From the NCBI RefSeq assembly GCF_037892425.1, contig NZ_JBBKTT010000001.1:1240001-1304000 (forward strand): a stretch of 64,000 nucleotides of DNA, given 5' to 3'. Both the position numbers and the translations under genes were made by a program. The DNA comes from Lacibacter sp. H375 (GTDB lineage: Bacteria; Bacteroidota; Bacteroidia; Chitinophagales; Chitinophagaceae). Shown here piece by piece: positions 37,184 through 40,927 of this stretch. The notes below the pieces were generated by a model, which worked only from the letters and a program-made list of their open reading frames with translations, was not told the DNA's origin and did no database searches. Positions within the stretch are counted from its first letter, which is position 1. Every line of letters starts with the position of its first letter.

Positions 37184-38200
37184 TTAGATCAGTCCAAACT
37201 GAGCACTTAACTCAAGCATACGATCAATGGGTTTTTTAGCCGCTAATCTCAACTCTTCATCCATTAAAATTTCGGGCATCTCATATTCCATACACAGGTA
37301 GATTTTTTCTAGTGTATTCCGCTTCATGTGTGGACAATCATTACATGCACATGCATTATCAGGAGGAGCCGGTATAAAGGTCTTGTGTGGGTTACTCTTG
37401 ATCATTTGATGAAGAATACCAGTTTCCGTTGCCACAATATATTCCTGGCTACTGTCCTTCTCGGTGTATTTGAGCAACTGAGTAGTGCTTCCAATAAAAT
37501 CTGCCAGTTTTAATACCGGTTCTTCACATTCCGGGTGAGCAATCACTTTTGCGTTCGGATGACGAAGTTTCAGCTTGGTAATTTTCTCAACACTGAATAT
37601 TTCATGTACCATACAGGCACCATTCCACAGCACCATATTGCGACCGGTCACTTTGTTTATATAGGCTCCGAGGTTTTTATCGGGTGCAAAAATGATCTTC
37701 TGGTCTTTCGGAAGACTTTCCACAATTTTTTGTGCATTACTGCTGGTGCAAATAATGTCGCTCAAAGCTTTTATACCGGCACTGCAGTTGATGTAAGAGA
37801 TCACCAGATGATCAGGATGTTGTTTTTTGAATTGCTCAAACAGAGGCGGCGGACAGCTGTCGCTGAGCGAACAACCTGCCTTCAGATCAGGAATCACCAC
37901 TTTTTTTGTTGGGTTGAGAATCTTGGCTGTTTCAGCCATGAAATGCACACCAGCAAAAACGATAATATCAGCGTCGGTTTGTTCTGCTTTTTGCGCAAGC
38001 CCAAGGCTATCGCCAATGTAATCTGCCACATCCTGTATGTCGGGTTCCTGGTAATAGTGCGCCAGAATAATGGCATTTTTTTCTTTTTTGAGACGTTCAA
38101 TTTCGGCGAACAGATCTAATTCAGGATCCAGCTCAATATTTAAAAATCCATTTTTTTCAACGTTTATCTTTGGATCAGTTACAAGCATTGTGTTCATCAC
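37184..38200 (-). CDS. nadA: Quinolinate synthase
   Basis: A 338-residue protein with the three homologous NadA domains. Motifs: [71 protein letters not shown] and the C-terminal [20 protein letters not shown]. Cysteines in the INCSA, HPEC and NDCPHMK regions are expected to ligate the [4Fe-4S] cluster. It condenses iminoaspartate with dihydroxyacetone phosphate to quinolinate for NAD synthesis. nadB and nadC are not in the window. It points away from the DnaA-box region. Confidence 0.95.
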
Positions 38201-38728
38201 GCTTTGTTTAAATTTGATTCGAAACTAGGACAAAAAAAAATAGCTCTTTTACCGTAGTATATCTTAATAGATACTTATTTATTTAATAATCTATTACTAT
38301 TATGTATGTGAATTCGTGGATATCTCCTCTTCACTTCTTTTTGCAAAGTTAGCGAAGGCTCATTTATTCACATTAATTCCCAATTCATCCACATGTTGAT
38401 ATACAGCAGCAGTAAGGAAACTTTGGCTTTGTTCACAACTGTGGATTCAAAAACGGTTGTACAACTAACATCAGTATTTTTTCTTTTTGTTGTGTTAAAG
38501 CGGAGGGGATAAACACGGGGTTGTAAACGTAGTTTTTGAACCATGGGTCAACCTTCACAGATCTCAACTAATCACTAACGAAGTTATCCCTGTTAAAAAC
38601 GACCATATCCACAGCTTTCAAGGTTTATTCACATGGCTATTGTGAATTCTTTATTTCGGTTTTTGAAATAGTTGCCCCTTCTTTTCTAAAACCTTTACCC
38701 TGTGCAGATTACGGGAGTTTTCCACAAT
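38201..38728. other. Candidate replication origin (oriC): DnaA-box cluster and AT-rich segment
   Basis: A gene-free region between divergent nadA and ppiD-like genes. Five 9-mers differ from TTATCCACA at one position, all on the plus strand: 38364 TTATTCACA, 38385 TCATCCACA, 38605 ATATCCACA, 38625 TTATTCACA and 38718 TTTTCCACA. Two weaker boxes face each other at 38429-38437 and 38440-38448, and another lies at 38315-38323 (minus). The strong boxes come as pairs 20-21 bases apart. An AT-rich stretch at 38257-38308 could be the unwinding element. By chance about 0.1 such matches are expected in 500 bases. dnaA is absent here; gene orientation gives no clear strand bias. Confidence 0.65.
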
Positions 38729-38759
38729 TTGTTCAAACCTCTTTTTCCCCCTATTTTTG
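38729..38759 (+). promoter_or_regulatory. Promoter of the PpiD-like gene
   Basis: TTG (38729-38731, within TTTG), 20 bases and TATTTTTG (38752-38759) match the Bacteroidota promoter. The ATG is 33 bases after the box. The -33 element directly follows the last DnaA-like box. Confidence 0.6.
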
Positions 38760-38791
38760 CCGCTCACTTTTATAACGTACAATATACTATT

Positions 38792-40927
38792 ATGTCCATT
38801 ATTCAGCAGATTCGTGAAAAGTATGCAGCCGTGAGCATTGCTGTGATTGCTTTGAGCCTTATCGGATTTATTCTAACAGATTACTTTGCCGGCCGTGGTA
38901 GCGGTGCCGGATCGCAACCTACTTCTATTGGTTCTGTAAACGGAAAAGATATCGATGTCAATGTTTTCAGTGATCGTTTAACAGAAATGGAAAATGGTTA
39001 CCGTGCCCAGGGAATGGATGTAAATGATGAAATGCGCCAGCAATTGATCGAAATGTTATGGAGTAATGAAGTGGAAGAAACAATTCTTACTGGTGAATAT
39101 GAAAAACTTGGTTTAACGTTCTCTTCTGCTGATATGAATGAAGCGTTATATGGTAGTAACCCACCTCCGGCATTGGCACAACAATTCAGAGATCAGCAAA
39201 CCGGTGCGTATGATGTAAATGCAGCCCGCCAGTTTATTAATTCACTGAAAAATAAGAAAGCAAACGATCCGCAACGTGTCTATGTTGAGCGCAACATCAT
39301 TGATTATATTGTACAGAATGGTTTGCGCACAAAATATGGTGCTCTTTTAGCCGGTAGTGTATTTTATCCAAAATGGTTAAGTGATAAAGACCTGAACGAT
39401 CAAAGCAGTATTGCTTCTATCAGTTATGTTGCTGTTCCTTATACTACTATCAGCGACAGTGCTGTAAAAGTTACGGATGAAGATATCAATGCATATGTGC
39501 GTAAACATAAAAATGAATTCAAGCAGGAAGAAAGCAGAGCGATCTCTTATGTAATTTTTGATGCTGCACCAAGTGCTGCAGACTCTGCTTATGCATTGGG
39601 TGAAGTAAATAAACAATACAGTGCGTTTGCTACTTCAACAGATGCTGAACAATTTGTAATTGCCAATAGCTCAACCACAGCTTTCTATAATGGTTATGTT
39701 TTGAAATCTGCTTTACAGGTTCCCAATGCAGATTCTATCCGCAGTCTTCCTGTTGGTGGTGTGTTTGGACCATACCAGGATGGCGGTAATTATGTTATTG
39801 CCAAAATGGTTGCTAAGCGTGACATTCCTGATTCAGTAAAATGCCGTCACATTCTTGTTGGTGTAATGGATCAGCAAACTGGCCAGGCGATCATGAGTGA
39901 TAGTGCTGCATTGAAACTGATCGACAGTATTAAAAATGCTGTGAATGCAGGAGCTAACTGGGGTGAAATGGTGAAGAAGTATAATCCATTAAGCGATGGA
40001 AGCCGTGAGAATAATGGTGAAATGACCTTTAGTGCCAACCAGGTGCAACAACCAAACTTTGCAAAAGAGTTTGCCGATTTTATTTTGTTAGATGGTAAGG
40101 TTGGAGAAAGAAAAGTAGTGAAAACAAGTTTTGGTTACCACTACATTGAAATTATGGAGCAAAAGAAAATAGAACCTGCTTATAAAATTGCTTACTTCTC
40201 ACGTGCGGTTCAGCCGAGTGATGAAACCATCAGCAGTGCAAGTACAGCTGCAGCCCAGTTTGCTGCTGAAGCACGTAATGCAAAACAGTTTGAGGAAGCA
40301 ATTACAAAAAAGAAATTAGTGCCACGTGTTGCAGAAATTCGTCCTACTGATTACTCTATTATCGGTTTAGGCGGGGCACGTAATCTTGTTAAGTGGGTGT
40401 ATGAGAATAAAGTGGGTAATGTATCAGAACCTACAACACTTGGTGATAAAGTTGTGGTAGCATTAATTGCTGAAGAAAAAGAAGAAGGTGTGCCTGATGC
40501 CAAAACAGCACGTATCCAGGTTGAGAGCATTGTTCGCAATCAAAAGAAAGCAGCACAGATCATTAGTAAGATTGGGAACAATCGTGATCTAAGCCAGATC
40601 GCAACCAGCTTTAAAACAAATGTGTTACGTGCAGATAGTCTATCATTCTTCTCTCCGTTTATTCCGGGAGTGGGTATGGAGCCGAAAGTTACCGGCGCTG
40701 CATTTAACCCTGCGGTAAAAGGAAAGAGCAGCGAACCAATTGCCGGTAATACAGCAGTATTTGTGATCCGTACAGAAAATGTTGGATTGCAGCCAGCGGG
40801 AAATGCTGCCTACAACGATCGTCGTTTACAGATGGAAGCTGGCATGAAACAAAATGCTGCAAATGCAGCATTACAGTCATTACGCAAGGCGGCTAAAGTA
40901 AAAGACAGGAGAATTAAGTTCTATTAA
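38792..40927 (+). CDS. PpiD/SurA-like periplasmic peptidyl-prolyl isomerase (foldase)
   Basis: About 711 residues from ATG 38792 (MSIIQQIREKYAAVSIAVIA), giving one N-terminal membrane anchor (about 13-30) and a periplasmic body, as in PpiD. An in-frame start at 38702 would lie in the promoter region and is rejected. A SurA-N-like helical chaperone region (about 55-250) precedes a parvulin PPIase domain (about 340-450: VKCRHILVG, ANWGEMVKKYNPLSDGS, FGYHYIEIME). A degenerate second parvulin-like region (about 520-620) follows. It helps fold secreted and outer membrane proteins. Enterobacterial PpiD is 623 residues. Confidence 0.88.
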   Translation: MSIIQQIREKYAAVSIAVIALSLIGFILTDYFAGRGSGAGSQPTSIGSVNGKDIDVNVFSDRLTEMENGYRAQGMDVNDEMRQQLIEMLWSNEVEETILTGEYEKLGLTFSSADMNEALYGSNPPPALAQQFRDQQTGAYDVNAARQFINSLKNKKANDPQRVYVERNIIDYIVQNGLRTKYGALLAGSVFYPKWLSDKDLNDQSSIASISYVAVPYTTISDSAVKVTDEDINAYVRKHKNEFKQEESRAISYVIFDAAPSAADSAYALGEVNKQYSAFATSTDAEQFVIANSSTTAFYNGYVLKSALQVPNADSIRSLPVGGVFGPYQDGGNYVIAKMVAKRDIPDSVKCRHILVGVMDQQTGQAIMSDSAALKLIDSIKNAVNAGANWGEMVKKYNPLSDGSRENNGEMTFSANQVQQPNFAKEFADFILLDGKVGERKVVKTSFGYHYIEIMEQKKIEPAYKIAYFSRAVQPSDETISSASTAAAQFAAEARNAKQFEEAITKKKLVPRVAEIRPTDYSIIGLGGARNLVKWVYENKVGNVSEPTTLGDKVVVALIAEEKEEGVPDAKTARIQVESIVRNQKKAAQIISKIGNNRDLSQIATSFKTNVLRADSLSFFSPFIPGVGMEPKVTGAAFNPAVKGKSSEPIAGNTAVFVIRTENVGLQPAGNAAYNDRRLQMEAGMKQNAANAALQSLRKAAKVKDRRIKFY

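Follow-up and report, generated by a model that had tools for sequence, protein, structure and literature searches.

The locus described here lies at 1.278 Mb in the 5.08-Mb genome of Lacibacter sp. H375, inside the window that extends from base 1240001 to base 1304000 of a 4.81-Mb contig (the window is the whole 64-kb stretch of DNA that was analysed, and feature coordinates are counted from its first base). The left neighbour is the quinolinate synthase gene nadA (37184..38200, minus strand; PF02445, E 4.5e-126), which lies outside the origin proper proposed below. The right neighbour is a gene for a ppiD-like SurA_N/rotamase foldase (38792..40927, plus strand; PF13623 and PF13616). The Pfam profiles agree with the first-pass annotation, which had named these two proteins as the flanks of the gap and had placed dnaN 26 kb away; by Pfam, dnaN lies within the window, about 25 kb off. 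The closest relatives of the PpiD protein are those of a Chitinophagaceae MAG (84% identity) and of Lacibacter cauensis and L. luteus (77%). The dnaA gene is found at 2.445 Mb, 1.17 Mb from the nadA-ppiD locus. Rfam and tRNA scans of the 64-kb window gave no match. The genome also has a second large contig (G000:C2) of 269,731 bp.

DnaA boxes, a putative unwinding module and candidate promoters in the gap

Five 9-mers with one mismatch to the DnaA box had been reported between the two genes, and all of them are present on the plus strand within 363 bases: TTATTCACA at 38364..38372, TCATCCACA at 38385..38393, ATATCCACA at 38605..38613, a second TTATTCACA at 38625..38633, and the promoter-proximal TTTTCCACA at 38718..38726. 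The reported facing pair of weak boxes was also found; it consists of TTGTTCACA (38429..38437, plus strand) and GAATCCACA (38440..38448, minus strand), with two mismatches each. The chance expectation, originally put at about 0.1, was computed as 0.097 boxes in 363 bp from the box frequency in the sampled part of the genome. The probability of at least five boxes is about 7e-8 per 363-bp stretch, or about 1e-3 after multiplication by the number of such stretches genome-wide. In the 749 kb of genome sampled, the gap holds the densest cluster, and every other 400-bp stretch has at most three boxes. Over the whole window there is no excess of one-mismatch boxes (24 vs 20.3 expected); thus, the signal is the clustering. 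Likewise, exact TTATYCACA is not in excess genome-wide (91 vs 117 for the control). The next closest same-strand pair of exact boxes after that in the gap (C1:4795353/4795657), which adjoins a short candidate ribosomal-protein-like frame, was set aside as an origin candidate, having only two boxes in a 400-bp stretch. An intergenic cluster of DnaA boxes, one of the criteria for an oriC, is therefore present in the nadA-ppiD gap.

At the nadA end of the gap, it was found that the minus strand carries a further arrangement that the first-pass annotation had not mentioned, namely two overlapping DnaA boxes (38307-38323), a 4-bp spacer, a four-unit repeat, and then AT-rich DNA. Box A (ATATCCACG, 38315..38323) has two mismatches and shares one base with the repeat-proximal box B (GAATTCACA, 38307..38315), which has three. 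The spacer between box B and the repeat (38303..38306, minus strand) is TACA here, while the commonest spacers in relatives are C/G-rich. The DnaA-trio-like repeat TAATAGTAATAG (38291..38302, minus strand) presents 3′-NAN-5′ four times on the complementary strand, if the last base of the spacer is counted. The AT-rich segment previously noted at 38257..38308, on the nadA side, is indeed 85% AT and is a candidate unwinding segment (DUE); this AT content at this length is reached at three separate places in the window, that segment included. In 80 aligned gaps of relatives, the AT content from the repeat outward is 78-94%. Thus, by composition, an AT-rich element lies beside the boxes, which is another criterion for an oriC.

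This order of elements is that of the basal unwinding system (BUS) of bacterial origins. The module was compared with the published search rules for BUS modules, which allow up to two mismatches in one box and four in the second, a distance of up to 16 bp between box and trio, and at least three 3′-NAN-5′ units; as described in PMC8287927, modules were found under these rules in 1755 of 2070 origins. Boxes A and B of Lacibacter, with their two and three mismatches, fall within the first limit. In the gaps of relatives with the module (see below), the better box of the pair has 0-2 mismatches in 80 of 84 cases and three in the other four. The distance from the TAR repeat is 12 bp for box A and 4 bp for box B, or one less in the NTA frame. 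All four units are 3′-NAN-5′ in 84 of 84 arrays. Since the search pattern itself demanded NAN, the finding is the conservation of the array, not the number of units.

Promoter candidates were named after the motif TAnnTTTG, which I take to be the −7 promoter element. A candidate nadA element, TAACTTTG, lies at 38344..38351 on the minus strand, and 40 of the 80 aligned gaps have the motif 47-54 bases ahead of the repeat. This position suggests that transcription from the candidate nadA element would cross the unwinding module. The ppiD element, TATTTTTG (38752..38759, plus strand), is 34 bp from the start of the promoter-proximal box; the distance in relatives is most often 33 bp. Of the 85 gaps, 72 have the ppiD motif, compared with 6.6 in shuffles, and 71 have a TTWTCCACN box no more than 130 bp from the start of ppiD, its most frequent position being 33 bp upstream of the −7 element. 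Thus, DnaA may act on the ppiD promoter.

Conservation in Chitinophagaceae

Are the boxes conserved between nadA and the foldase gene in relatives, as the first-pass annotation had proposed to check? A search for ppiD succeeded in 146 of the 147 family genomes, and the best 30 loci were taken and turned to the correct strand. In 27 of these 30 loci, nadA is divergent from ppiD. The 27 gaps, that of Lacibacter included, contain 123 one-mismatch boxes, compared with 6.6 in dinucleotide shuffles, and the boxes are therefore conserved. With 80 loci from a second collection, 110 ppiD loci were available: 85 distinct gaps with nadA, 17 loci without nadA within 3 kb (several of them cut by contig ends), and eight duplicates as judged by the last 200 bases. 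One locus, L159 (JADCRZ010000054.1), is titled as a Williamsia sp. MAG and has a Chitinophagaceae-type ppiD locus, so that the name of the record looks wrong.

Motif-free word counts in the 85 gaps returned the DnaA-box words TTATCCACA and TTTTCCACA, the ppiD-promoter words TATTTTTGC, and also words such as TAATAGTA, CTATTACTA, and TATTACTAT, which overlap into TAATAGTAATAG or its complement. A strict (TAR)4 repeat is present on the minus strand in 80 of the 85 gaps (0.1 in shuffles) and on the plus strand in none. When one altered unit was allowed and a box with up to three mismatches was required at the fixed spacing, the minus strand matched in 84 gaps and the plus strand in five, while shuffles gave 0.1. 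The sole gap without this loosened module, L192, is short (368 bp). The three closest relatives examined (L063, L152, and L163) have one altered repeat unit each.

The fixed pattern CACM-N4-(TAR)4, which was shaped on relatives in the same family that partly overlap with the genomes scanned, gave 104 matches in 92 of the 147 family genomes, compared with 35 matches for a backward-read control. Of the matches, 59 are located at most 1.2 kb upstream of ppiD, and every one of these is on the strand opposite the gene; a further ten are 1.2-4 kb upstream, four adjoin a nadA located apart from ppiD, and the other 31 are elsewhere. Counted by genome, 73 of 147 have the pattern at the nadA/ppiD locus and 19 only elsewhere, while 55 lack the strict form. 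The Lacibacter genome has one match and no control match. A looser, gap-variable pattern also gave one match in Lacibacter, compared with nine for its backward-read control; thus, this single match is no evidence by itself.

About 28-105 kb separate nadA from ppiD in four genomes (G116, G018, G022, and G119; counted across contig ends in G116), and the repeat and the boxes stay beside nadA. Within 300 bp upstream of the moved ppiD, G022 has two box-like 9-mers, G119 and G116 have one each, and G018 has none. Conversely, 16 of the 17 nadA-less ppiD loci were examined (L177, which begins inside ppiD, was left out), and the four-unit repeat lies upstream of ppiD in nine of the 16, seven of these nine with the strict box-spacer form. 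In one genome (G139), a nadA-like gene was found on a different contig from ppiD. Four of the loci with no nadA seen beside ppiD (L078, L161, L184, and L227) have no box cluster by ppiD. In five loci examined (L280-L284, from G051, G091, G021, G027, and G003), the box array and ppiD are separated by a frame of about 2.2 kb; that of L280, the only one tested, encodes a Peptidase_S46 protein. A frame of similar length adjoins the array in L276 and L278. Since the module stays with one of the two genes when they lie apart, it is not accounted for by the promoter of either. As judged from these gene orders, the putative module travels as a unit.

At the level of the class, a sample of 99 genomes has ppiD-like matches in 98 and nadA in 63. 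Judging by the gene positions listed, nadA and ppiD adjoin each other only in Chitinophagaceae (two of the three family genomes in the sample), although broken contigs could hide pairs. The nadA-ppiD address is a trait of the Chitinophagaceae family as far as sampled.

The gap as a candidate replication origin

GC skew was computed at fourfold-degenerate sites with a gene-strand term, because raw skew is confounded by gene orientation, from 58 sampled stretches (749 kb of 5.08 Mb). The first-pass annotation had expected the skew minimum of the whole genome at the locus. The best change-point of the full sample is at 1.29 Mb, close to the locus at 1.278 Mb, but the evenly spaced subset of 34 stretches slightly prefers 0.77-0.87 Mb (RSS 575, compared with 587 at 1.30 Mb), the full sampling being denser near the locus. 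The Lacibacter skew is thus supporting and not decisive. The fit puts the terminus 59% of the way round from the best origin. With the terminus fixed opposite and a 48-kb grid, the bootstrap origin ranges from −0.41 to +0.02 Mb from ppiD. Among six relatives, the sign of the skew flips clearly in two, between stretches at −0.28 and +0.12 Mb from ppiD in G114, and between stretches at −0.13 and +0.15 Mb in G113; the latter has nadA beside ppiD and scattered boxes, but no strict module in the gap. The fit is weak in G116, the skew is too weak to be informative in G004 and G055, and G085 is contrary. Contig C1 of G085 (8.44 Mb) has a strong skew of alternating sign with no two-arm pattern and the wrong sign change at the locus, a mosaic that is perhaps due to heavy rearrangement or misassembly. 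A position beside dnaA was also considered and rejected; 2.445 Mb fits the Lacibacter skew poorly, and the 3.5-kb dnaA locus has two scattered boxes.

The box cluster, the BUS-like module, their conservation in relatives, and the coarse skew change support the origin that the first-pass annotation had placed between nadA and ppiD. Together with the independence of the module from either neighbour gene, they make it very probable that the gap (about 38251-38790) is the oriC of the main chromosome. The same boxes might instead form a region through which DnaA regulates nadA and/or ppiD. This explanation draws on the box that 71 of 85 gaps have close to the start of ppiD, on the closeness of the nadA −7 motif to the module in half of the aligned gaps, and on the TTTTCCACA that the moved ppiD retains in both G022 and G119. 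It is nevertheless very unlikely, because the array and the module stand together beside nadA where ppiD is far away, because the repeat is found by ppiD in nine loci with no nadA seen beside it, and because the frame of about 2.2 kb separates the array from ppiD in five loci. Moreover, control of a promoter would need neither an AT-rich four-unit repeat at a fixed spacing nor a change of skew.

The density of the boxes would also suit a site of DnaA titration or reactivation (datA/DARS-like) near, not at, the origin, and the skew, with its resolution of hundreds of kilobases, would allow an origin tens to hundreds of kilobases off. No datA/DARS-like site is known to have a box-spacer-trio module with an AT-rich flank. 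In addition, the fixed pattern matches only once in the Lacibacter genome, and the sampled 749 kb hold no denser box cluster, which leaves this explanation very little probability. As for a chance cluster, an AT-rich composition favours boxes and AT-rich repeats alike in intergenic DNA, but shuffles of the same gaps yielded 6.6 boxes instead of 123 and 0.1 gaps with the module instead of 84, and the strand is the same in all 59 matches near ppiD. Chance is thus refuted by the conservation, and its probability is practically nil.

If the gap is the oriC, DnaA would fill the same-facing boxes at 38364-38726 and would be handed from this array to the overlapping minus-strand boxes at 38307-38323. 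An oligomer of DnaA may then extend from these boxes to the left, across the four units at 38291-38302, and the AT-rich DNA next to nadA would melt; helicases would load there so that two forks could leave. I infer these steps of loading, transfer, spreading, and melting from the anatomy of the locus and the BUS literature.

Comparison with known origins and the polarity of the repeat

The module resembles the BUS of Bacillus subtilis and Helicobacter pylori in its overlapping or abutting tandem boxes, short GC-rich spacer, 3′-NAN-5′ run, AT-rich DNA, and further boxes behind (PMC8287927, PMC8235120). In the origins of these two species, abutting or overlapping boxes are followed by the short GC-rich spacer (PMC8235120), and the boxes of H. 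pylori, as far as can be deduced from the text of that paper, are oriented relative to the repeat like those of Lacibacter. The repeat of B. subtilis is 5′-CTACTATTACTTCTACTA-3′, and it is the right end of this sequence that lies away from the boxes (PMC10201434); thus, DnaA reads 3′-GAT-5′ units on the other strand. In contrast, the box strand of Chitinophagaceae reads outward most commonly as 5′-NTA ATA GTA ATA-3′, with four units, and the locus lies far from dnaA.

The canonical DnaA-trio is 3′-[G/A]A[T/A]-5′ (PMC7561715). In the 84 arrays, the middle base on the box strand is T in all four units, as the search pattern demanded, whereas a canonical first base is seen in the first unit in 40 arrays and hardly ever in the units that follow. 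Read in the canonical polarity with a purine as the first base, 42 of the 84 arrays have no canonical unit, 41 have one, and one has two; no run of at least four canonical trios in this polarity was found beside a box in the 85 gaps. The units in this polarity are mostly 3′-YAT-5′, and they become canonical if read on the opposite strand. In H. pylori, reversal of the trio polarity blocked opening (PMC8235120). By its base pattern, the repeat would represent a variant trio code or else a trio in reversed polarity. The supplementary logos of PMC8287927 may already display a repeat of the Chitinophagaceae type.

Escherichia coli oriC offers another likeness. Its DUE-proximal box reads TTATCCACA toward the DUE, with TAATAA outward on that strand, as in Lacibacter, and its neighbours are mnmG and mioC, not dnaA. 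The two origins differ in that the box and TAATAA are 14 bp apart in E. coli and 4 bp apart in Lacibacter, and in that Lacibacter has two overlapping boxes. Within Bacteroidota, a comparable case is the oriC that Ori-Finder predicted in Prevotella intermedia OMA14, which combines several DnaA boxes with a skew transition and is remote from dnaA (PMC4755523). The same paper states, like the first-pass annotation, that the origins of this phylum frequently lie away from dnaA. Among the papers listed in the literature searches, none concerned a nadA-ppiD origin in Chitinophagaceae. DoriC may already contain such predictions.

These observations allow a tentative proposal, which is less likely than not to hold. 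Chitinophagaceae origins might use a fixed four-unit DnaA-trio variant (3′-YAT-5′ or reversed canonical) downstream of two overlapping boxes, and hence a DnaA code unlike that of B. subtilis or H. pylori, and a nadA promoter firing through the unwinding site might couple transcription to opening. The conserved four-unit repeat with its "wrong" first base poses a testable question, that is, whether DnaA reads a different trio or the opposite strand. For Chitinophagaceae, in which dnaA gives no guide to the origin, the nadA-ppiD gap would provide an origin at the sequence level, and its position would let assemblies be oriented and estimates of replication rate from metagenome depth be anchored.
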